Shown here in pieces: positions 4,931-26,314 of a stretch of 26,314 nucleotides of DNA. The stretch's first letter is position 1. Each line of letters begins with the position of its first letter. The notes beneath the pieces were generated by a model. That model saw only the letters and a program-made list of their open reading frames with translations, was not told the origin of the DNA and searched no databases. Made by a program: the position numbers and the translations under genes. The DNA is from a virus, in IMG/VR virus record IMGVR_UViG_3300010883_000370, positions 1-26,314 of that record; one strand, written 5' to 3'.

Positions 4931-6001
4931 ATGAAGAAAGCAATTATATTTGGGGTAACGGGCCAAGACGGTAGTCATTTAGCTGACTTGCTGTTGAGCA
5001 AGGGTTACAATGTAATCGGAGTAAACAGGAGAGCCAGTACAGATAATACTGAACGAATTAGTCACGTCTTGGATCACACAAGTTTCAATCTGGTTCAAGC
5101 GGACATAACAGATGCTCATAGTGTATATCAGGTGTTTAAAGATAACGATGATGTAGATGAAGTCTATAATCTTGCAGCACAATCCCATGTAGGAGTGTCT
5201 TTTAAGCAACCAGCACTAACTTGGGATATAACAGGCAAAGGATGTTTAAATATCTTACAGGCTATTGTGGAACTAGGTGTATTTGGATGCAGGTTTTATC
5301 AAGCATCTAGCAGTGAGATGTTTGGTGCTTCATATGATATCGACAGGGATCAAGTGAAATATCAAAACGAAGAAACTAAGTTCCTGCCTCAGTCACCGTA
5401 TGCTATTGCTAAGTGCGCCTCTCACTACATGACGAGACTTTGCAGAGAAGGATACGGAGTTCACGCAAGCGCGGGAATACTATTCAATCACGAAGGCCCC
5501 AGAAGGGGCGTAGACTTCGTAACTAGAAAAATAACAAAGTGGATTGGAGAGTTTCTTAGTTGGTGCAAATCAAAAAAAATCGAACCCTCCGAGTTAGTAT
5601 TTGATGGTGGAAATGTCTATATTCCGGGAAGAACGAACAAAGACCAAGGATTTCAGTTTCCAAAGCTGCGTCTGGGAAACCTTGAAGCATTTAGGGATTG
5701 GGGGTATGCGGGAGATTATGTTGAAGCAATGTGGATCATGCTACAACAGGAACAACCAGATGATTATGTTATCTGTACCGGGGAGACCCATACTATTCGA
5801 GAGTTTCTCAGCGTGGCATTTGGATACGCTGGGTTAGGGGAGTACAACGACTTTGTAGTACAGGACCCTGAATTCTATAGACCAGCTGAAGTGGACTACC
5901 TAAGAGGAGATAATACAAAAGCGAAAACCAAATTAAACTGGGAGCCTAGACACTCTTTTGAGGATCTAGTTAAGCTGATGGTGGACCATGACTTACAATG
6001 A
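4931..6001 (+). CDS. gmd: GDP-mannose 4,6-dehydratase
   Basis: A full-length (356-residue) NAD(P)-dependent short-chain dehydrogenase of the GMD family, which converts GDP-D-mannose to GDP-4-keto-6-deoxy-D-mannose, the precursor of GDP-fucose, GDP-rhamnose and related sugars. The nucleotide-binding loop GVTGQDGS lies at 8-15, SSSE at 126-129, and the catalytic YAIAK (Tyr157, Lys161) follows. Family signatures FNHEGPRRG (186-193), GNLEAFRDWGYAGDYVEAMW (249-268) and YRPAEVDYLRGD (316-327) are all present, so it should be active. AAGGAA precedes the start. It is embedded between a DNA-binding protein and packaging genes. It could modify phage glycans or alter host surface sugars. No partner reductase or glycosyltransferase is in the window. 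Confidence 0.95.
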   Translation: MKKAIIFGVTGQDGSHLADLLLSKGYNVIGVNRRASTDNTERISHVLDHTSFNLVQADITDAHSVYQVFKDNDDVDEVYNLAAQSHVGVSFKQPALTWDITGKGCLNILQAIVELGVFGCRFYQASSSEMFGASYDIDRDQVKYQNEETKFLPQSPYAIAKCASHYMTRLCREGYGVHASAGILFNHEGPRRGVDFVTRKITKWIGEFLSWCKSKKIEPSELVFDGGNVYIPGRTNKDQGFQFPKLRLGNLEAFRDWGYAGDYVEAMWIMLQQEQPDDYVICTGETHTIREFLSVAFGYAGLGEYNDFVVQDPEFYRPAEVDYLRGDNTKAKTKLNWEPRHSFEDLVKLMVDHDLQ

Positions 6002-6527: not shown

Positions 6528-7005
6528 GTATACAGTAATAAGAGACACGAGAGAACAAGAGGGTTATCACTTTAGCGAGTATGACCTATGCCTTGGTATG
6601 ATAGACCAGAAACTAGACACTGGTGATTACTCTATACTGGGCATGGAAGATAAGATATGTATAGAAAGAAAAGGTTGTGTGGAAGAACTAGCAATAAACT
6701 TGGGACAAAAGAAACATCCGTTCCTAAGAGAAATCGATAGAATGAAAGAGTTCCCGCACAAATTTATAATATTAGAGTTTAGCCTATCTGACTTAATAGA
6801 CTTCCCTGAGAATAGCAGAATACCTGAGAAGAGTAAAGGCTCTGTTAAGATATCAGGAAAGTATTTATTAAAGTGCCTAATGGAATTTCAGCTGTATGAC
6901 AAGGTTCATGTGATATTTTGCGGAAATAAATACAATGCGTTTTTAACTGTTAGTAGCTTATTGAAGAGAGTCAATGAACTGTACACTATTGGAAGAAAAA
7001 AATGA
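6502..7005 (+). CDS. ERCC4-type nuclease
   Basis: The product is 167 residues, essentially one ERCC4 (XPF/Mus81) nuclease domain. D15 in VIRDTREQ, G41-D42 in LDTGDYSI, and ERK at 55-57 followed by Glu61 reproduce the family metal-binding pattern GD...ERKx3D, with Glu in place of the final Asp. No helix-hairpin-helix domain follows, so it would be a minimal version. This family cuts branched or flapped DNA, so resolving replication or recombination forks ahead of packaging is plausible here, which is inference. It overlaps both neighbours (26 bases upstream, 4 bases downstream). Confidence 0.85.
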   Translation: MPKYAKAPKYTVIRDTREQEGYHFSEYDLCLGMIDQKLDTGDYSILGMEDKICIERKGCVEELAINLGQKKHPFLREIDRMKEFPHKFIILEFSLSDLIDFPENSRIPEKSKGSVKISGKYLLKCLMEFQLYDKVHVIFCGNKYNAFLTVSSLLKRVNELYTIGRKK

Positions 7006-7646
7006 ACGACGTCATAGACTCAATACATGGGCAAAATATAGATACCGACCAGAGGGAAATCTACCTCCATGGTCACTACGGGCCTTTTGAAGATGACCCC
7101 GGAGTTGAGTATCGCATGGCGACGACCTTCATTAAAAACATCAGATATTTAGACGCGATAAAAAACGAACCAATCCTTGTCCATATGCATAGCCTTGGTG
7201 GAAACTGGGCTGATGGAATGGCTATCTACGACGCTATCAAAGTCTCAAGGTCACACGTCACAATCATAACCTATGGTCAAGCGGAATCCATGAGCAGTAT
7301 TATGCTACAAGCCGCAGATGTCAGAATAATGACTCCCAACTCTTACTTCATGTGTCACTACGGAAGCAGCTGTAATGCTGGAAGTTTTCTAGACACTCAA
7401 AACTGGGCTGAGTTTGAATCAAGAATATTAGATTCGATGCTTGATATATATGTTGAACAATGCATAAAGGGCAAGTTTTTCAGAGAAAGATTTGAAGACC
7501 TAAGTGAGTCTAAAGTTAGATCTTTCATAAAAAGAAAACTAAAGGATGGGGACTGGTATATCAATAGTAACGAGGCTGTGTATTACGGTTTTGCAGACGG
7601 TGTTTTATCAACTAGAAAGTACGAAGGCATATCAAGCCTAAAATGA
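7002..7646 (+). CDS. ClpP-like serine protease
   Basis: The product is 214 residues, the length of ClpP. The ClpP fold signatures are clear: HMHSLGGNWADGMAIYDAI (oxyanion region), GQAESMSSIML with nucleophile Ser96, MCHYGS with His119, and GDWYINSNEAVYYGFADG with Asp184, so the Ser-His-Asp triad appears intact. In many phages such a protein matures the capsid and is fused to or placed beside the scaffold. Here it lies upstream of the large terminase, and a different protease-scaffold gene exists at 11759-13279. Its target is therefore unclear: prohead processing, host proteolysis or another assembly step. ATGA overlaps join it to both neighbours. Confidence 0.9.
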   Translation: MNDVIDSIHGQNIDTDQREIYLHGHYGPFEDDPGVEYRMATTFIKNIRYLDAIKNEPILVHMHSLGGNWADGMAIYDAIKVSRSHVTIITYGQAESMSSIMLQAADVRIMTPNSYFMCHYGSSCNAGSFLDTQNWAEFESRILDSMLDIYVEQCIKGKFFRERFEDLSESKVRSFIKRKLKDGDWYINSNEAVYYGFADGVLSTRKYEGISSLK

Positions 7647-15417: not shown

Positions 15418-18400
15418 ATGATTGTAGATAAGCAAGCGCTTGTACTTAAGATAAATCAACAATTAGCAGACAACTCAACACAGGAAATATCTCCCAGAGA
15501 TATAAGAGACAACCTGCTGGACATTATTGATTCAGTACACTTATTCACAGCTGATCAAGACATTACCGCTAGAAATTTCGCAACCCCTCCCACTAGAACA
15601 ACGAGGGCTGGGGATGGAGCTCTAGACAGTCTAAAACTTGCAGGCTACAGCAGTGTAGATAACTCTGCATTTGGAGCTTCCGCATTAAGAGGTAACTATA
15701 CTGGTGTAAAAAATACAGCCATTGGAACTTACTCCATGAGCTGTAACCTTTACGGTTCTACCAATGTTGCTCTTGGTTATAATTCTCTCGCGGGAAATGT
15801 TTTTGGTGACAATAATGTAGCCATTGGTTCCTATACGATGCAGTCCAGTAAAAAGGGCGACAACAATATAGCCATTGGGCATGGAGCTGGATACTACATA
15901 GGCGAGAATGATAACTACAAATTATTCATTGCTAGTCATAACATCAACAACGATGACTTATGTTCTGTTACTCCCGGATCTGGTCCTAACCCACTTATTT
16001 ACGGAGATCTTCTAGGAAACAAATTAGGAATAAACACTACCTTACTACACTCCTTTGGTACGTTACAGGTAAATGGAATTCTATCTCCAACATCTGGAAA
16101 TAAGCATGACTTAGGATTCTTCTCACCTGCACATGATTACAGGTGGAGAAATGCATACCTAGCAAACTCCATAAATGACAATATATATTTTAATGACATT
16201 TCTGCTGCTAGAGTCAAGGGTGATATAGTACCTGATGCCACCAACATCTACAAAATAGGCGACTCTGGTAGAGGTCTGCTCTGGGATGGTTTCTTTAATG
16301 ACCTCACCGTTAGCGGTGTTGCTAATATAACCAACCTAAACTGGACGACTATAAATGACTGCACCTACGACTGCAGAACTCTATATCTTGCTTCTAGCGG
16401 TATCTGTAGCCCCAACAGCGGTCCTTGTGGATATCTTTCTGACACACAAGTAGAGGGTGGAGGCTTAGTACTTCAGGCCAGTGGAACAGATTACAAGAGA
16501 GATTATCACTGGACCTTCTTAGCTCCAGACTATAACCAGACATGCTTAGATCCAGATTTAAGTGGTGACAATTCAGCCATGGCTCATGCTAGCTGGTATA
16601 GCAACATAAGCTTAAAGCTAGAATCTGGTAGGCATATTAAGACTGATAGAGTGATAGGTAGAGACACCCTAGCTCTCACCAACACAAACGATTGCTTCGG
16701 TGTCTTTATAAAGAAAGACTCTGATATAATAAGGACTGGCAAAAACTGGAGAAATGAACAGCAAAGGTTATTGATATCTGCCGTCTCTGGAACGTTTAAG
16801 ATAATCTTTAAAGAGACAGCATCATCTGCGTCTTCCACAACAGCTGCAATACCATACAACGCAACGGCTAGCGATATACAAGCAGCTCTTTTGGCTATAG
16901 GGGTAACTGTCTCAGTATACCAATCAGGTAACACTGATTACTACTACGGCATAGGGGCAAGAACTTTCATACTAGAGTTTGCGGGATCTCTCTCCCGGAA
17001 AGACGTACCACTAATGACCGTGGACGCGAGCTCTTTAGTTGGGGCTTCTTTCGGCTCTGGATCAATAAGCCAATGCAGAACAATCCCCGGAATTGACGAG
17101 ACACAAAAGATCGAAGTTGTCGCCAATGGCGGTAACTGGACTCTTAAAAAAGATGCTGAGCCTGTAATACACAGCTCCTTTGGGGAATGGAACCTAATAA
17201 ATCAGCTGATACCATATAATGTTTCAGCGGCGATCCTAAAGGAAGCTCTAGAAGATATCTTTGGAGACACAACGATAACTGTCACTAGATCTTCACTATC
17301 CGAGGGATTTTCTTACAAAATCGTCTTTAGTGGGAACCTTGGAGAGCAGAACCACAACCTCCTAATACCAGCAGATCATAGCTTGACATCTGGAGGTGGT
17401 ACTACAGGTACAGGCGCTAGAAATGAACGCAAGAAGATAAAGGTTATTGGAGATGACGGAAAGTGGAAGATAGGCTGGGATGCATCTGGAGCTGGAAGCT
17501 ATACCTACTCTTCCTTACTTGATGCTTCCGCCACCCTATCTGAAGTCGATGCAGCTCTCGACGGCCTGCTTGGTGATTCTAACCACCAAACCACCTTCAA
17601 CTCCTCCACTGAAACAGATCCAGACGGTTCAACTTGGATAGTAAAAGAGTATGAAGTAACATTTATCGGTTCCCTTGGCGACCAAGATATTGGTGACGAC
17701 CAGTTAATAGCTGTTTCCGACACATCTGACCCATTGAGAAAGTCAGGAACAACTTCAAATGTTACATTTAGGCCACAGACCTATCATTTCATAGACGGCT
17801 TTCATAAAAAGCGTACAAATATTGCCATGGATAATTTAGTGGGCTTGTGCACGGTTGTCTTTCCAAAATCCTCCAGAAACAAGTACAATGCTGCCGGTGA
17901 TCGCATTTGGATGACTGAAGCAGAAGTTCAATCGCAGATTGGCAACGTCCAAGACGATTTATATTTATTCTTACCTTTCAAGATACAAGAAGTTGGTTTG
18001 CCTAATGTAAACTCTGCTACTGAGACCTCGCATATTAGGGAGGTTTTTGCAGAAATCAGTATACCACTCGAAAAAGACTCTTTGGGAAACATATTAGCCG
18101 TTGAGGTTTCTGATATTTCTGACGCAGTCTCTACACAATTGCGCACAAGAAATGTCTTAAACGTTACGATGTCTACCTATTCCCCATGGGTCTATAGAGA
18201 CAGCCGTTCCCGACAAGAAGGCATTCAAAATACCAGTCGGGAACTTCCCCAAAGCTATTTTATGCATGAGACCGAAGACGCAAAGCTTGTGCAAGCTGCT
18301 CAACAAAGCTATTCACTAGAACAAGAACCCTCAATGATGATTCTGTATAATGGTCCGGTAGTCATAAACAGGTTCAGCAAAAGCACAACACAGGGAGGCC

Positions 18401-21400
18401 AGACTGAGTACGAATTTAAGTTTGGTCCAGAAGTTCATGTAGTCTTCGGCTCTAGTAACGCAGTAGGCATGCTCAATACCCCGGAGATAGGAACTCTCGC
18501 TCAAAAGAGGGCAGAAAATTTATACTCTTGGGGGATGATAAGAGGAGGGGATTGCCCCCTAATAGAAGACGACCTTCATGACAAAGTCCACAGGCCGTAC
18601 CCTATAGATCAGGTTACTACCAGAAATAATGATTTGAGCGGTTTCCCCAATGATAGGGACGAAATCTACTACAAACTTCAAATTATAAAATCAGATTTCA
18701 CTGGTGGAGTTAATGACAACGACTTACTTAAGAGCACGCATGAAATTGCGTACACAAGTGATGTCCTAAACAACGGCAGTAATCCGTCCTCACTGCAAGT
18801 CCAACTTGACAAGTTTTACAGCGGCTACGTTAGAGTTTTATCTCAGATGGCCACAAATGACTTTGGCGCCACAGATCGTACAATAGCTAGACAGAAGTCC
18901 AACTGGAATAACAAGGTTGCTGGAAAAGACTTCGTGGTTGGTTACACCGACAACAACCAAGACAGGGCACGCTATGGCTTAATTTTTGAGGTAATCGATC
19001 CAACCCTTAGCGCAGCATTAGGCTCTGCCGCAAGGAGAGATTATGGTCATGTCTCAGTGACTGACCCATCAAATCAAGAAGAGAAGTTCATAAGCAAGAT
19101 GTCATCAGACTCCGTTAATCAGTATCATATGTATATAAGATACTGTGACTCAAACGGAAATGACCTTCCTCATACAAGATTGAGTCCAGAGTTTAATGAC
19201 TTCTCCGTAAGAAATAGCAACAAGAGAATAGTCCAAGCAGACGGAACTCTTGCCGATACTTTTAGATATGAGGGGGTAAAGCAGCGACCCTATGTAGGCC
19301 AATCGGTTGACTATAACCGCCTAGACAACAAACCTCACTTCGTTGTTCACAAGGCGCATCAAGGGGGCAAAGGAGCCTTAATCGGGTCAGCAAATGTTAC
19401 CACGTTAATAGAGGGTAAGCCTGCCACCCCCGGCACTGGAGGTAGGGTTGTGTCAACAGAGACACACGACGGTAGAGCCGATTCAGAAGAATGCATAACA
19501 CTAGAGGGTAGAGAAATAGCCCCCGTACTAACCATCACAGAAATTCAAGATGGTACAGATCTGATAGACGACAGCGCAGAATGCAAGGACAATATAGCTT
19601 ACATAACAGAAGAGCCAATAATAACACCTAACCCATTAACTCCTTCTGGAACTTTAGGAAACATAGGAGATGTGAACTTTATATCCTCCGGATGTTCCTC
19701 AGACTACATAGTAGCTTATTCAACTCTGGATTCTGGAAATAACATAACACAGAGATATGTAAGCAATATACAAACTACCGTAAATGATAACAAGTTTAAA
19801 GAAAAGATATCTGGCTTTGACTTGACCTATAGAGACGAAGGCGAAGTTATAGATGATATAACGGAACAGAAGAAAGATAGATTTTTAGTTTCTGCCTATG
19901 ACAACTCAACTATCCCCGTCAATGCCTTAACAATAATGAGAAACAGGAACATTGGCCTTGTTGGAATAACTGATATAGCGGGAATTTCTGAAGAGATACT
20001 TCCTGAAACGATATTTAACATACAAGCAACAGGAATTCCAGAAAACAGAACGACTGGGGATGGAGGTGCTAAGCTTCAACTTTTAGGTGGATCAAACAAC
20101 AAGAAAAAAGACGGTGTCGAACTTGAGTTTATCCAAGGCTCCCGAGTAGCCAATATAAACATGTTCAGAGATTATGACAAGCAGCAAGCCGTGCATATAT
20201 CTTCTGAAAACCACGTTGCTATCGGAAACCGACATGCAAACGAAATGCTTACAATAGGAAGTGGCGTACAAACGGGGACAAGAGCCGCCATATCTATGCT
20301 CCAGTCTTCTGGAACCATAAACCCATCTACAGACTTTGGAAAAGTATATGTAAAAGAAGTTTCTAAAAACAACCAGTGTCAAACCATCTATTTCTTAGAC
20401 GATTGCGGCAATGAGTTTGACTTAGTAGGAAACAAATTTGCAACCTCAGGCGATAGAATCTATACCGATGAATTTTGCAATACTCACGTTGGCGATCACT
20501 CACCAGACGATAGGCACCTTATTGCTTCCAGAGGTGCTTTTGGAAACACAACATTAGGTAGTCACGCGCTTCAAGACTCTATTGGCAGCGCAGACAATAT
20601 AGCAATCGGTTGTAAAGCTGGCTCTGGCGTAACTCATGGTTGGCAGAATATTTTAATCGGTAATAATGCTGGAGCACATACCGGAGACAATACCCCTGAA
20701 CCTCTTACTACTGGATTTAGAAACACTGTCTTAGGGCATAACTTAGATGCTGCAAACTCAAGCTACAGGCTTCTTGTCGGCAACGACAGACAACTTTTAA
20801 TGAGTGGCATCATGGGTCCAGATCGTTCTGACAAGATTCTTACTCTACCACACGGTAGACTATCACTCACGTCTGCAGACGATTTTGACGCTTTAACAAT
20901 TGATTCAAAGTCAATCAACTTGACAGATAACGCTAATCAGTATCCAGATCAAGCCATGGACTTCTTGTTCACTGGTCCTAATTCTAGCAACGTGCTTGCA
21001 TCCAACACTCTTCTTTCCCTTAAGCATCACGTTTCTCCAATGGACCCAGATTGCTGTACATATACAGTCCCTTCTCCGGAAAGACCATACGCAGAGGTCC
21101 ACGGCGACTTTAGGCTAGCAGGAGCAATTAGATTCTGTGACGGAACAAGCATGGAATCCGCTAGTATCCTTAGCGGCTTTAGTATTGTTGGCCGAAGTGG
21201 AATAAGAACAGAAATTGGTACTAGTGAAACTTCAATAGACTTAGCTATTGACAAGCTCTCACTCAACACTGCCGCAAATGCTACTGATTTCTATCTAGCA
21301 GTTGCTAGTGGAACCACCCATAGTAGAATAAACTTCACTGACTTGGCTGGATACATAAGCCCACTATCCGCTAGAATAGACAACTGTGAAGACGGCCAAG

Positions 21401-22311
21401 CGGGTTATAGATATATGTTTACCAACAATAGTGTCCTAGGTCCTTTGGGGTGCAATAGTGTTTACATGGGCAATGAGGCTGGCCACGATTCAAACGGTTG
21501 GAATCACTCTGTGATGATTGGTACACATGCCGGAAGAAGCGCAACGATAAGTTATTCCTCAGAAAGCGAGCACGCATCTGTATTCATTGGCCACCAAGCT
21601 GGTGAAAACACAACGGGGTGCTACTCGTCTACGTTTATCGGTCCTAACGCAGGATTTAATGCAGATGGTTCTTACAGGTCAGTATTTATTGGTGACGAAG
21701 CTGGACAAAACGCCAGTTCTTATCGCTCAGTTGGTATCGGTGACAACGCCCTAGAAGGGGTAACTGGTACTCACAACTTAGAGATATGTACGGGCATTGG
21801 TAAAGACGGTGCTCAACCTTGGGAAACAAGACTCATGACCGGAAATATGAGCTACAAGATGAACATTGGAGATATCCTTGCTGGCGATATGGGCGTAAGG
21901 AGAATGAGCGTTGGAGCCGCAACCGTCCACTCAGAGGATGCTGTGTGGTCAGTAAGAAAGGATTCTTATCAAGGTCACAATGACATTGACTGGATTCAAG
22001 ACTCGCAACAAGATGACGTTAGAGTGGCGGGTGTACAGAAGGACGGCGTTCCATTCGCCGCGTTTACGTATGACTCAGGCGACGTTGTGGGAAGAATATA
22101 TGTAGAGGGGTATGCTCAAGGAAGTATTGCCAAACCATCCTCTGCAAGCTCAGCAACAACAGGTCAGATCATGATTAAAAAAGAAGGCTGGGCTGATGAC
22201 AAGCTTGTAAGTATACACAATAGAGATACGACTCTAAATATAGTATCCGGCGACTACGTTATTGCGATATTAATAAATGGAGAGTATCGTCCTATATGGG
22301 TAAGCTGTTAG
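15418..22311 (+). CDS. Giant modular tail fibre or adhesin, 2297 residues
   Basis: Residues 1-45 (INQQLADNSTQEISPRDIRD) resemble the N-terminal attachment segment of phage fibres. Three blocks of YadA-like head repeats (NxAIG, NVALGYN, VFIGxxAG) lie near residues 80-165, 1705-1780 and 2005-2120. These build left-handed beta rolls in trimeric adhesins. Residues about 449-775 hold three tandem copies of a beta module with the consensus G.W.L...IPYNASA...AL...V.FSGSLG. A large middle part (775-1650) is unrecognised. The C-terminus (GQIMIKKEGW...IWVSC) may be the tip. Likely role: trimeric host-recognition fibre. A GGTAG ribosome site precedes the ATG by 6 bases. Confidence 0.85.
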   Translation: MIVDKQALVLKINQQLADNSTQEISPRDIRDNLLDIIDSVHLFTADQDITARNFATPPTRTTRAGDGALDSLKLAGYSSVDNSAFGASALRGNYTGVKNTAIGTYSMSCNLYGSTNVALGYNSLAGNVFGDNNVAIGSYTMQSSKKGDNNIAIGHGAGYYIGENDNYKLFIASHNINNDDLCSVTPGSGPNPLIYGDLLGNKLGINTTLLHSFGTLQVNGILSPTSGNKHDLGFFSPAHDYRWRNAYLANSINDNIYFNDISAARVKGDIVPDATNIYKIGDSGRGLLWDGFFNDLTVSGVANITNLNWTTINDCTYDCRTLYLASSGICSPNSGPCGYLSDTQVEGGGLVLQASGTDYKRDYHWTFLAPDYNQTCLDPDLSGDNSAMAHASWYSNISLKLESGRHIKTDRVIGRDTLALTNTNDCFGVFIKKDSDIIRTGKNWRNEQQRLLISAVSGTFKIIFKETASSASSTTAAIPYNATASDIQAALLAIGVTVSVYQSGNTDYYYGIGARTFILEFAGSLSRKDVPLMTVDASSLVGASFGSGSISQCRTIPGIDETQKIEVVANGGNWTLKKDAEPVIHSSFGEWNLINQLIPYNVSAAILKEALEDIFGDTTITVTRSSLSEGFSYKIVFSGNLGEQNHNLLIPADHSLTSGGGTTGTGARNERKKIKVIGDDGKWKIGWDASGAGSYTYSSLLDASATLSEVDAALDGLLGDSNHQTTFNSSTETDPDGSTWIVKEYEVTFIGSLGDQDIGDDQLIAVSDTSDPLRKSGTTSNVTFRPQTYHFIDGFHKKRTNIAMDNLVGLCTVVFPKSSRNKYNAAGDRIWMTEAEVQSQIGNVQDDLYLFLPFKIQEVGLPNVNSATETSHIREVFAEISIPLEKDSLGNILAVEVSDISDAVSTQLRTRNVLNVTMSTYSPWVYRDSRSRQEGIQNTSRELPQSYFMHETEDAKLVQAAQQSYSLEQEPSMMILYNGPVVINRFSKSTTQGGQTEYEFKFGPEVHVVFGSSNAVGMLNTPEIGTLAQKRAENLYSWGMIRGGDCPLIEDDLHDKVHRPYPIDQVTTRNNDLSGFPNDRDEIYYKLQIIKSDFTGGVNDNDLLKSTHEIAYTSDVLNNGSNPSSLQVQLDKFYSGYVRVLSQMATNDFGATDRTIARQKSNWNNKVAGKDFVVGYTDNNQDRARYGLIFEVIDPTLSAALGSAARRDYGHVSVTDPSNQEEKFISKMSSDSVNQYHMYIRYCDSNGNDLPHTRLSPEFNDFSVRNSNKRIVQADGTLADTFRYEGVKQRPYVGQSVDYNRLDNKPHFVVHKAHQGGKGALIGSANVTTLIEGKPATPGTGGRVVSTETHDGRADSEECITLEGREIAPVLTITEIQDGTDLIDDSAECKDNIAYITEEPIITPNPLTPSGTLGNIGDVNFISSGCSSDYIVAYSTLDSGNNITQRYVSNIQTTVNDNKFKEKISGFDLTYRDEGEVIDDITEQKKDRFLVSAYDNSTIPVNALTIMRNRNIGLVGITDIAGISEEILPETIFNIQATGIPENRTTGDGGAKLQLLGGSNNKKKDGVELEFIQGSRVANINMFRDYDKQQAVHISSENHVAIGNRHANEMLTIGSGVQTGTRAAISMLQSSGTINPSTDFGKVYVKEVSKNNQCQTIYFLDDCGNEFDLVGNKFATSGDRIYTDEFCNTHVGDHSPDDRHLIASRGAFGNTTLGSHALQDSIGSADNIAIGCKAGSGVTHGWQNILIGNNAGAHTGDNTPEPLTTGFRNTVLGHNLDAANSSYRLLVGNDRQLLMSGIMGPDRSDKILTLPHGRLSLTSADDFDALTIDSKSINLTDNANQYPDQAMDFLFTGPNSSNVLASNTLLSLKHHVSPMDPDCCTYTVPSPERPYAEVHGDFRLAGAIRFCDGTSMESASILSGFSIVGRSGIRTEIGTSETSIDLAIDKLSLNTAANATDFYLAVASGTTHSRINFTDLAGYISPLSARIDNCEDGQAGYRYMFTNNSVLGPLGCNSVYMGNEAGHDSNGWNHSVMIGTHAGRSATISYSSESEHASVFIGHQAGENTTGCYSSTFIGPNAGFNADGSYRSVFIGDEAGQNASSYRSVGIGDNALEGVTGTHNLEICTGIGKDGAQPWETRLMTGNMSYKMNIGDILAGDMGVRRMSVGAATVHSEDAVWSVRKDSYQGHNDIDWIQDSQQDDVRVAGVQKDGVPFAAFTYDSGDVVGRIYVEGYAQGSIAKPSSASSATTGQIMIKKEGWADDKLVSIHNRDTTLNIVSGDYVIAILINGEYRPIWVSC
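16762..17745 (+). repeat. Three tandem copies of a ~95-110 codon beta module within the giant fibre gene
   Basis: Three successive stretches begin with QRLLISAVSGTFKI, TQKIEVVANGGNWTL and ERKKIKVIGDDGKWKI. Each continues with a Tyr/Asn/Ala-rich turn, an AAL or EAL helix and an FAGSL/FSGNL/FIGSL strand. The protein copies are clearly related but the DNA has diverged, so this is an old duplication. The same module, often with IAYNASAAAVQAAL, recurs in phage tail and bacterial surface proteins. Confidence 0.75.
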
Positions 22312-22329
22312 TCTTAACGAGGAAATAAA

Positions 22330-23742
22330 ATGGGCAGACCACGAAAGTGTAATTGTAAGTGCGGGGAAGATGTAACCGATCCGCCGGATTTCGACGCCCA
22401 ATTCTTTGTTCTTATTTTTCAAGATGAGTCCCATCCTCTCTATGTGGATCAAAATTCCGGTGGCGGCGATGGTCGAGGCGAGTTTATACCAGACCTTGCA
22501 TATTTCAGACAAAAAGAGCAATCCATTGGTAGGATTAATATGGCTATATTGCAGCCCCATGCTACTTGGGGAATTCCTTCAATTAAGGCGGAAAGTTTTA
22601 ATGGGGGTGGCCCAGGAGGTCTTCCGGTAGAGGTTTTATATCATAATAGATGCTCCAGAAATACAGTTACAAGCGATGATAGAACTAAGTTAATATATAT
22701 TACAAACGAGCTGATAAGAGGAGATTACGAGTGTGTTGGCGTTTTTATTGATATTTCTGGGTCGATGAGACGAGCCACCGTAGAGGCAATAGTAGACGAG
22801 TGGTATTGGAACATATCAACATCAGAAGCAAGCCACTCTACCTACACGAGATATATAGTAGATTCGGCTGGTGATCCATGGCCATTACCTTCCTGTACAG
22901 CAGGAGAGCTCGGTTTGGGAACAGCAGGCGGATGTGTCAAAGAGATAGGGACTGGAGCAGAAAACTGGCTGAGAATAGCAGCGGATAATGCACAATCAAT
23001 ACACGACGACCCTGATGGTTGTATTGGGGGAAATGTTAGTGGCTGTGACTGCACTCAGAAAATAGGATGGCCTGAAATATGTGCTGTCTTTATGGATAAG
23101 TCGAAAGTTCCCACAACTGTAAACTTCAACATAAGCTGGATAAAAGCTGGCACACTATCAGATGATAGCTCTCCTTTCGTAGAACTAAAAGACACTTATG
23201 GGAACGTTTCAAATTCTAATTTTAAGGCTGATATAATAGAAGCGTTTGCTGTCTGGAAAGCCGCCCTTGAATCCGCCTGCTCTTGGTTGACTGTTAATTT
23301 TACAGACATAGGAGACGAGACCATAACGACCCTACCAAGCGCCACTGTCGCCGGAACATATAAGTTCTCAGATTATCCCGGCGCAAATATAGGAGACATA
23401 AGAATAGGGATGCATACGATTCAGTCGTCGGCCATAGCCCACGCCTATTATCCCGGAGCTGCTTTAGGGATAACTGGAAACCAAGGTGGAGATATGCACT
23501 TTGATAGTGCAGACAAGTTTAGAAAAGATGACCAATCTGTAAGTGGCGCATACAGCATTAAGGTGGTGGCTGTTCATGAAATAGGCCACTCGCTTGGTTT
23601 AGCACACCTAAGCGCAGCAAGCAGTGTAATGTACAGCAGAGCCAAGCCACCCGAAACAAACTACGACGATGAATGGTCCGGTGGCGTGATTGGCGACACT
23701 GCCACATTTAACGCCCTAAAAGAACTTTACTGCGGAGTATAG
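22330..23742 (+). CDS. Matrixin-type zinc metalloprotease with MIDAS motif
   Basis: The product is 470 residues, with GAGG before the start. Residues about 300-470 are a matrixin (MMP-like, M10) catalytic domain: GDIRIG (355-360), AHAYYPG (370-376), GGDMHFD (386-392) for structural metal binding, then the zinc site HEIGHSLGLAH (His416, Glu417, His420, His426) and Met-turn Met434 in SSVMYS. All key residues are present. Around 137-146, VGVFIDISGSM carries DxSxS, the metal-ion adhesion site of von Willebrand/integrin A domains. The rest of that fold is not obvious. The N-terminus has Cys7, 9 and 11, and there is no signal peptide or Cys-switch. It lies between two adhesin genes, so it is probably a virion protein that cuts surface protein. 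Confidence 0.88.
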   Translation: MGRPRKCNCKCGEDVTDPPDFDAQFFVLIFQDESHPLYVDQNSGGGDGRGEFIPDLAYFRQKEQSIGRINMAILQPHATWGIPSIKAESFNGGGPGGLPVEVLYHNRCSRNTVTSDDRTKLIYITNELIRGDYECVGVFIDISGSMRRATVEAIVDEWYWNISTSEASHSTYTRYIVDSAGDPWPLPSCTAGELGLGTAGGCVKEIGTGAENWLRIAADNAQSIHDDPDGCIGGNVSGCDCTQKIGWPEICAVFMDKSKVPTTVNFNISWIKAGTLSDDSSPFVELKDTYGNVSNSNFKADIIEAFAVWKAALESACSWLTVNFTDIGDETITTLPSATVAGTYKFSDYPGANIGDIRIGMHTIQSSAIAHAYYPGAALGITGNQGGDMHFDSADKFRKDDQSVSGAYSIKVVAVHEIGHSLGLAHLSAASSVMYSRAKPPETNYDDEWSGGVIGDTATFNALKELYCGV

Positions 23743-23744
23743 AG

Positions 23745-26314
23745 ATGTTAAAATTAGCGAATAGAGTCAAGGAAACTACCTTAAGTCAGGGTACGGGCTC
23801 CGTTATACTAGGAGGTGGTTTTGGAGCTTTCCAGACATTCTCCTCAGCTATAGGTAATGCCAACGAAACCTTTTATACTATTGAAAATGAATCAAAATGG
23901 GAAGTAGGCATAGGCACTTACACCTCTGCGACAAACAGCCTATCAAGAGACACTATTATCAGCAGTAGCAGTTCAGGATCTAAAATAAATCTTAACGGCT
24001 TATCTATCGTATTTTGTACTCTCCCAGCAGAGAAAACAGTATTCTTTGGAGCGACTAACTATCTCCCAGATGGTATGCCGCTTACTCTTGGACGAACCGA
24101 TGCGGGAAATCTCATACATGCTTATGTAGATAACGCGACTGACGAAACCGTTGCTCTACATATAACCAACGAGTCTTCCCCAACATGGAAGCTTGGGTTC
24201 AAAGATTCTCCTTCATCCAATACGTCTGCACCAACCTATGGGTATGTTCACGGGGCAAATGGCACAGCAGGTCTTTACGGAGATTCTGACGCATATGCTT
24301 ATATGGATGTAAACCTTGGATTTTACATAGTTCACGAAACTGTAAACCTAGTTCAGGTAACAAAAGATGGTGGCACTCAAATAAAAAACGGCTCAGCCGC
24401 CGTCAATGCTTTAACCGTTAAGGGCGCTTCAGCACAGTCCTATCCACTTCAAGTGTGGACAAACTTTGCTGGCACAACGTTATCCTCCGTTAGTTCTGAT
24501 GGCTCTCTAGCACTGGGTAAAGCCACAGCTCCTAACTACACGCTAGATGTAAACGGAACAGCTAATCTTACAACATTGAGGTTTGCAGACGGCTCTAGTC
24601 AAACAACGGCCTCAAAGCCTTCAGGAGAATTTGTAGCCCTTAGTGGTGTGGCTGAGACAAACAAAACTAACATAGCGACAAACACTGCTCAAATAGTAAT
24701 AAACAAGGCCACAACTGTTGGTGTATCAGGCTTACTAACGGGTGTACTAACCGCAACCAGTGGAGCATTAATAAACGCTAACTTTATGCCCTTAGTTAGC
24801 GGCCAAGTAATAAACACCATGTTGGCTGCACACGACTACCTGCCAGTAGCTAGTGGTGCTGTAATTAACACAATGCTTGCCGCTCATGAACAAGGCGGCT
24901 CAAGCGCTCTTCCTGTCTCCAGTGGGGCAGCTATCAATTCTCACTTTATGCCTTTAGTGAGTGGTGATAACTTCATGCCTATCCTTAGTGGTGTAGCTAT
25001 AAACACGTTCTTTGCGACGAAGCAAGACACCATAACGGGGAGTAATCGAATAGACGCTGCGCACATCAGCGCTGGCAATGTGAGCAACACAGAATTTGGT
25101 TTCCTGAGTACCGTAACCGACGATATACAAACACAGCTAGATTCAAAGATTCCTACGTCTAGCGGGTATCTTCCAATCAGTAGCGGGGATGTAATCAACA
25201 CCATGCTAGCAGCTCACAGCCAAGGGGGAATGCCGGTGTCTAGTGGTGCTGCTATCAATGCTCACTTTATGCCTTTAGTGAGTGGTCAGGTTGTAATGCC
25301 AATCTCTAGTGGAGCAGCAATCAACACCATGCTCGCCGCGCACAGTCAGGGTGGAATGCCAGCATCCAGCGGAGCCGTCATCAACACAGCACTCACAAAC
25401 GTGCTTGCTGGTAGTCTACCAGTCAGTAGTGGCGCAGCAATCAATGCTCACTTCCTGCCAATGGTGAGTGGGGACGCTAAGTACATACCAGTCAGTAGTG
25501 GAGCCGTAATCAACACTATGCTAGCAGCTCATAGTCAAGGGGGAATGCCGACATCTAGTGGGGCCGTTATCAACACAGCTCTAACAAACGTCCTTGCTGG
25601 CAGCCTACCAGTCAGCAGTGGGGCAGCAATCAATGCTCACTTTATGCCCATGGTCAGTGGGGATGCTAAATTCCTACCCGTCGCCAGTGGAGCAGTCATC
25701 AACACTATGCTCGCCGCGCACAGTCAGGGTGGAATGCCAACGTCTAGCGGAGATGTCATCAACACAGCTTTGACAAACGTGCTTGCTGGTAGCATACCAG
25801 TTAGCAGTGGCTACCTTCCAACAGCCAGTGGAGCAGTCATCAACACCATGCTCGCCGCGCACAGTCAGGGTGGAATGCCGACATCTAGTGGGGCCGTAAT
25901 CAACACAGCTCTAACAAACGTCCTTTCTGGCAGCCTACCAGTCAGCAGTGGGGCAGCAATCAATGCTCACTTTATGCCGATGGTCAGTGGGGACGCCAAA
26001 TTCCTACCCGTAGCCAGTGGAGCCGTAATCAATACCATGCTGGCTGCCCATGAGCAAGGTGGTTCGAGCTCTCTACCCGCTACTAGTGGCGCTAAAATAA
26101 TCTCTGACTATATGAACGTCAAAACCAGTGGAGACGCAATCGCATCACACTTCATGCCACTCCACAGTGGTATAGCCATAAATGCTGATTACATGCTTGC
26201 AGCCAGCGGTGCAGTGATTAATGCTCACTTTGGTCCTCTAGCAAGCGGGGATGCTAAATTCCTTCCTATAGGCAGTGGGGCAGCAATCAATGCTCACTTT
26301 ATGCCCATGGTCAG
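23745..26314 (+). CDS. Repeat-built tail fibre, partial (runs off the right edge)
   Basis: ATG at 23745 (GGAG 7 bases before it, two bases after the protease stop) opens a frame with no stop in its 856 visible codons. Residues 1-100 (LANRVKETTLSQGTGSVIL, YTIENESKWEVGIGTYTS, LSRDTIISSSSSGSKINL) are a virion-attachment domain I know from many phage tail proteins. Residues about 100-330 hold beta-rich sequence including APNYTLDVNGTANLTTL, a common fibre element. From about 337 the chain is built of 20-23 residue units with SSGAxIN. A long repetitive shaft is likely, with the receptor tip beyond the window. It is the second giant fibre beside the protease. Confidence 0.85.
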   Translation, partial: MLKLANRVKETTLSQGTGSVILGGGFGAFQTFSSAIGNANETFYTIENESKWEVGIGTYTSATNSLSRDTIISSSSSGSKINLNGLSIVFCTLPAEKTVFFGATNYLPDGMPLTLGRTDAGNLIHAYVDNATDETVALHITNESSPTWKLGFKDSPSSNTSAPTYGYVHGANGTAGLYGDSDAYAYMDVNLGFYIVHETVNLVQVTKDGGTQIKNGSAAVNALTVKGASAQSYPLQVWTNFAGTTLSSVSSDGSLALGKATAPNYTLDVNGTANLTTLRFADGSSQTTASKPSGEFVALSGVAETNKTNIATNTAQIVINKATTVGVSGLLTGVLTATSGALINANFMPLVSGQVINTMLAAHDYLPVASGAVINTMLAAHEQGGSSALPVSSGAAINSHFMPLVSGDNFMPILSGVAINTFFATKQDTITGSNRIDAAHISAGNVSNTEFGFLSTVTDDIQTQLDSKIPTSSGYLPISSGDVINTMLAAHSQGGMPVSSGAAINAHFMPLVSGQVVMPISSGAAINTMLAAHSQGGMPASSGAVINTALTNVLAGSLPVSSGAAINAHFLPMVSGDAKYIPVSSGAVINTMLAAHSQGGMPTSSGAVINTALTNVLAGSLPVSSGAAINAHFMPMVSGDAKFLPVASGAVINTMLAAHSQGGMPTSSGDVINTALTNVLAGSIPVSSGYLPTASGAVINTMLAAHSQGGMPTSSGAVINTALTNVLSGSLPVSSGAAINAHFMPMVSGDAKFLPVASGAVINTMLAAHEQGGSSSLPATSGAKIISDYMNVKTSGDAIASHFMPLHSGIAINADYMLAASGAVINAHFGPLASGDAKFLPIGSGAAINAHFMPMV
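24756..26314 (+). repeat. Coding tandem repeats with SGAxIN core, including a 189-base higher-order unit
   Basis: Three unit types alternate: INTMLAAHSQGGMPTSSGAV, INTALTNVLAGSLPVSSGAA, and INAHFMPMVSGDAKFLPVA plus SGAV. Together they make 63 codons (189 bases). The HSQGGMP block recurs at 25230, 25356, 25545, 25734 and 25875, that is at spacings of 42, 63, 63 and 47 codons. The copies at 25545 and 25875 share about 150 bases with six differences by my count, so some duplication is recent. Units toward 24756 are more degenerate. Confidence 0.9.

Follow-up and report, generated by a model that had tools for sequence, protein, structure and literature searches.

A Phage Matrixin with an Invariant DxSGS Motif Encoded Between Spike-like and Fibre Genes

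Introduction

Phages are well known for cutting sugars at entry, and proteins much less so. Several described systems come close to the protein considered here. In the CLCA metalloproteases a zincin and a vWA domain are joined in one chain, and CLCA_X relatives occur in phages and plasmids (PMC3650047). In the Mtz/Tim system of Listeria, the phage-borne metzincin Mtz alters the cell wall and enhances virion release (PMC8235301). Haloarchaeal tailed viruses encode vWA-MIDAS proteins, which are reported as CobT-like or AAA-ATPase partners (PMC8651126, PMC7911831). Our literature search found no report of a phage matrixin in the virion.

Here we describe a gene for a 470-aa protein in a viral record of 26,314 nt (IMG/VR IMGVR_UViG_3300010883_000370, positions 1 to 26,314; the whole stretch is hereafter called the window). 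With the matrixins of family M10, such as MMP-14 and karilysin, the protein shares the HExxHxxGxxH motif, the Met-turn and the AHAYxPG and GDxHFD loops, but neither a PRCGxPD switch nor a signal peptide is seen, it lacks the HxD half of the structural-zinc site and it has an unrelated N-terminal domain. As in the CLCA proteins, a zincin and a vWA-type motif share one chain; however, CLCA_N belongs to another zincin family and precedes the vWA domain, whereas the M10 domain of the phage protein is C-terminal, after the vWA-like motif, and a full A domain is here only putative. Like Mtz it is a metzincin on a phage element, although Mtz carries a signal peptide, is paired with a TIMP-like protein and affects the cell wall at lysis, and no DxSGS domain has been described for it. 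The haloarchaeal proteins likewise place a MIDAS motif in a tailed virus, but they are encoded in the replication/accessory region and lack a protease domain. Overall we consider the observation real and of interest: the first-pass annotation was right about the protease and about the motif, and its A domain and function are putative.

The Gene and Its Surroundings

The gene and its principal neighbors are as follows.

22330..23742, plus strand: gene of the matrixin/DxSGS protein, an ORF of 470 codons with a ribosome-binding site and syntenic homologs in contigs L002 (56%) and L003 (34%)
22320..22323, plus strand: ribosome-binding site AGGA, 6 bases 5' of the start codon, read from the sequence
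22330..22383, plus strand: conserved N-terminal tail MGxPxxCxC...PP, from the three-way alignment
7002-7646: head maturation protease
15418..22311, plus strand: giant spike/virion-like protein of 2297 aa with AIGxxAG-type repeats and PHROG virion structural and tail spike matches
23745..26312, plus strand: downstream fibre protein with an N terminus of the tail-fibre anchor type, at least 856 aa long and cut by the end of the window

The ORF was recovered as first annotated; its ribosome-binding site, together with syntenic relatives on two other viral contigs, leads us to take the 470-codon gene as genuine. A ribosome-binding site stands at the equivalent place in the relatives as well (AGGAGG and AAGGAG in L002 and L003). 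No signal peptide was recognized by eye in the 470-aa protein. The distal part of the upstream region holds a minus-strand endonuclease VII-like gene, a nucleotide-sugar epimerase-like gene, nucleases, the head maturation protease, terminase and portal, followed toward the matrixin gene by a scaffold-like coiled protein, a cement-like protein, a weak major-head-protein match, a gp80-like protein and the 2297-aa protein, homologs of which occur in L002, L003, L005, L007, and L008. On the other side, the fibre gene starts after a gap of 2 bases, and residues 2-109 of its product match phage tail fibre and peptidase S74-like proteins. The early description of the gene as lying between two giant adhesins thus holds in outline, with a spike/virion-like protein upstream and a fibre-type protein downstream.

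Several features of these neighbors vary within the lineage. The giant spike-like protein ranges from 2344 to 1351 aa, the shortest being without much of its middle (window 15418-22311; L003:5935-9990), and in two contigs its parts are split over two consecutive ORFs (L007:10001-15936 and L008:10001-13272). The fibre protein (window 23745-26312; L003:12473 onward) contains numerous degenerate repeats that follow the scheme xSSGAVINTxLxxxxxGSLPVSSG, and relatives differ in their repeat content. A GDP-mannose 4,6-dehydratase (nucleotide-sugar epimerase) gene is kept in the lineage, 5' of the packaging genes (window 4931-6001; L014:2820-3821).

Relatives and Their Divergence

Relatives were sought in IMG/VR by protein, alignments and peptide patterns. 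The search returned two, L002 (56% over the best segment) and L003 (34%), both with the gene order of the window and the matrixin gene between the spike and fibre genes. Beyond these, no relative was found in IMG/VR, GTDB contigs, INPHARED phages (no isolate homolog) or 395 genomes of one bacterial phylum, the pattern-seeded searches being non-exhaustive. A scan with the pattern VFIDNSGS returned known vWA types and unrelated proteins, and zero relatives. Three contigs of the same lineage that were found through the giant protein (L005, L007, and L008) carry no matrixin copy and appear to stop before the locus.

Between the window and L002 the N-terminal domain is 51% identical and the protease 74%, with similar third-position change. 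Against L003 the values are 42 and 36%, so that the halves are about equally diverged and the protease is the less similar. The L003 protein is the longest of the three; its N-terminal domain carries a Calx-beta-like insertion (L003:10934-11350; Pfam E 5e-4, below the curated cut-off), and a further insertion precedes the Met-turn.

The Matrixin Domain

23113..23739, plus strand: matrixin (peptidase M10) catalytic domain, residues 262-470, from Pfam PF00413 and PDB MMP-14
23437..23457, plus strand: AHAYYPG loop, residues 370-376 (H371), aligned to AHAYFPG of MMP-14
23488..23505, plus strand: GDMHFD loop, residues 387-392 (H390), aligned to GDTHFD of MMP-14
23575..23607, plus strand: catalytic zinc motif HEIGHSLGLAH, residues 416-426 (H416, E417, H420, H426), ligands invariant in the three homologs
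23629..23631, plus strand: Met-turn methionine M434, from the alignment to MMP-14

Judged by its sequence, the C-terminal half is beyond doubt a matrixin. Residues 294-439 match Pfam PF00413 with E 8.2e-17 and 62 bits, against a cut-off of 24, and the relatives match the same family (E 2.1e-18 in L002, 2.4e-9 in L003). Among PDB entries phmmer returned MMP-14 (E 1.4e-9), MMP-8, MMP-12, and karilysin, the MMP-14 alignment spanning AHAYxPG, GGDxHFDSA, HExGHxLGLxH, and the Met-turn. In the alignment, H416, E417, H420, and H426 are unchanged across the three diverged relatives, and the equivalent methionine lies in IMYS in L002 and in SIMA, after an insertion, in L003.

The initial claim that the domain has every hallmark of a matrix metalloproteinase core stands for the zinc motif, the Met-turn and the AHAYYPG and GDMHFD loops; the ligands of the accessory metal sites are retained in part. 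Of the structural-zinc site, H371 and H390 are kept and the HxD half is missing (GMHT here, GADD in L003), while the acids of the calcium loop vary, D392 and D395 being lost in L003; stability requirements may thus differ from those of the animal enzymes. The cysteine-switch propeptide PRCGxPD is absent from the 470-aa sequence, which does not disqualify the protein as a matrixin, since to our knowledge the switch is not universal among bacterial matrixins. An N-terminal KCNCKCG was considered as a cysteine switch and dropped, its second CG being lost in L003.

The N-terminal Domain and the DxSGS Motif

22384..23103, plus strand: N-terminal domain, residues 19-258, of alternating strands and helices, vWA-like by motif only (invariant columns; low-confidence AF2 secondary structure)
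22750..22764, plus strand: DxSxS motif D141-I-S143-G-S145, MIDAS-like (invariance, serine codon-class switches, vWA profile alignment)

The DISGSM of the first-pass annotation (residues 141-146, bases 22750-22767) was there read as the metal adhesion motif of an integrin-like A domain. The motif itself is well founded. D141, S143, the glycine and S145 are invariant among the three relatives, with a hydrophobic strand (CVGVFI) before and a helix after, as in vWA domains. The serine codons are TCT/AGC/AGC at S143 and TCG/AGT/TCA at S145; serine has been kept through two-base switches between TCN and AGY, which indicates selection for serine at both sites. Across 439,594 residues from other viral ORFs, the combination of hydrophobic strand and DxSGS was seen in two places only, each time in a vWA-looking protein. 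When a vWA profile built from 13 proteins, chosen independently of the DxSGS peptide, was compared by hhalign, it aligned best exactly at the D141 site with a score of 27.0, against maxima of 18.6 in 200 column shuffles and 16.8 with the reversed profile, over a short alignment of 15-16 columns. A MIDAS-like motif is thus present beyond chance, as far as its sequence goes, and it comprises only the DxSxS part of the site; D226, D240, and D256, all invariant, are candidates for the second MIDAS aspartate.

The integrin-like A domain fared less well and is at most a candidate. Pfam and PDB searches of the N-terminal domain gave no match at E<=10, and no invariant threonine that could be the canonical MIDAS threonine lies within residues 165-262 in the three relatives. 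Assignment to the integrins or to the CLCA proteins was rejected, given the lack of a profile match and the domain order. Two AlphaFold2 models from 3-sequence alignments had pLDDT of 34-36, too poor to read, and Foldseek on the second, low-pLDDT model gave generic alpha/beta folds at best (E 0.08). In the low-confidence secondary structure the motif follows the third strand instead of the first, a topology that would fit a circularly permuted A domain or another alpha/beta fold.

The N-terminal domain may therefore not be a vWA/A domain at all; DxSGS would then be a local metal-binding or structural turn in some other alternating alpha/beta fold, and the protein a phage matrixin with an unassigned partner domain. 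We give this nearly an even chance. The missing profile matches, the 15-16 columns of vWA similarity, the lack of a conserved threonine and the position of the motif speak for it, whereas the rarity and specificity of the motif and the selection on its serines speak against it, and a permuted A domain would account for the same topology. It concerns the N-terminal domain only and can be combined with each of the functional readings below.

Matrixins Among Viral Contigs

The annotation knew of no standard phage protein with this combination, which is right for the combination and wrong for the protease by itself. A scan of IMG/VR for HExGH[AS]LGLxH found at least 120 viral-contig stretches with the metzincin signature, and 10 out of 10 chosen contigs, some of which may not be phages, passed the Pfam M10 cut-off, so that matrixins of phages and viruses are not rare. 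Among the matches listed (104 motif ORFs), only one belongs to the DxSGS matrixin family, agreeing with the L003 protein at every residue of the stretch covered, and DxSGS is absent from the remaining 103. The pairing of a matrixin with DxSGS in a phage fibre module appears to be new. The matrixins of L027, L047, L056, L076, L129, and L140 resemble the present protein in passing the M10 cut-off on viral contigs, but they are mostly small and none has DxSGS.

One matrixin type recurs (L076:6777-7607, with similar ORFs in L038, L047, L055, L056, L080-L082, L113, L121, L122, L125, and L126). It has an N-terminal endolysin-type (peptidoglycan-binding-like) region and a cysteine-switch-like RRCGLPD, read in L076, and resembles a complete pro-MMP layout; the genes beside it look alike from contig to contig.

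Possible Function and Alternative Readings

We propose that the 470-aa protein most likely belongs to the virion, as part of the tail or fibre apparatus, and would be produced along with the giant spike-like protein and the fibre protein. By way of a metal-dependent contact around D141/S143/S145, the N-terminal domain would hold a virion partner or a host surface protein, and the C-terminal matrixin would cut a receptor or a surface layer made of protein when the phage adsorbs. As a whole, a tail- or fibre-borne protease that binds and then cuts a host surface protein is our best explanation, held tentatively and at somewhat under even chances; our confidence is moderate for the location and low for the substrate.

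That the protein is part of the virion is probable. The gene lies in a structural module beside fibre genes, a location conserved between the window, L002 and L003, and the setting, with terminase, portal and capsid genes, a spike-like gene before it and a fibre-anchor gene after it, favors a virion part, as does the lack of a signal peptide by eye, which is expected of a protein leaving the cell in virions. A matrixin in this location is most naturally read as an enzyme that would cleave a host surface protein during entry, a possible reading that we would not call probable. Recognition domains often diverge faster, and the faster change of the N-terminal domain than of the protease between the window and L002, with DxSGS fixed, counts for a recognition domain, on one pair only. 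Calx-beta domains are common in surface adhesins, and the Calx-beta-like insertion in L003 counts for adhesion. A more specific form is rather unlikely: a tool on the virion whose metal-dependent adhesion domain, perhaps circularly permuted, would hold the host surface protein for cutting by the matrixin of the same chain. If true, it would be a phage case of the CLCA-type protease-plus-adhesion architecture and a protein-cutting counterpart of polysaccharide depolymerase spikes, and such a matrixin, sitting in a fibre module and equipped with a recognition-like domain of its own, would open the penetration of protein layers to direct tests.

Phages often use proteases to process their virion proteins, and the matrixin might instead be a morphogenetic protease that processes the adjacent giant spike or fibre protein, either inside the cell during infection or on the virion as it assembles, with the N-terminal domain docking on that protein. 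This general habit of phages, the fixed place of the gene in three of them, flanked by the two largest virion-like genes, and the lack of a signal peptide by eye all fit; nevertheless we think it improbable, since the window already has a separate head maturation protease and the usual site of action of matrixins is extracellular.

A protease released at lysis, outside the virion, and acting on host envelope proteins or neighboring cells like Mtz would agree with the reported cell-wall-altering phage metzincins (PMC8235301) and with the endolysin-type region of the recurrent viral-contig matrixin. It is somewhat less probable still, as the gene lies in the fibre region and not in a lysis cassette, and neither an obvious signal peptide nor a TIMP-like partner beside the gene was recognized, both of which Mtz has. 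Finally, loss of catalysis, with the protease domain kept for binding, is very improbable, because all three relatives preserve the glutamate, the Met-turn and every catalytic ligand, even though structural-zinc and calcium ligands are partly lost and the CLCAs include zincins whose active sites are substituted (PMC3650047).

Other Observations on the Viral Contigs

Two metzincin-motif ORFs lie close together on one viral contig (L071:5475-6670; L030). A 400-aa DUF932-like protein is encoded at L015:507-1706 and L016:7817-9016, its first 50 residues being identical between the two while the other genes of both contigs are far more diverged, which suggests either strong constraint or recent exchange.
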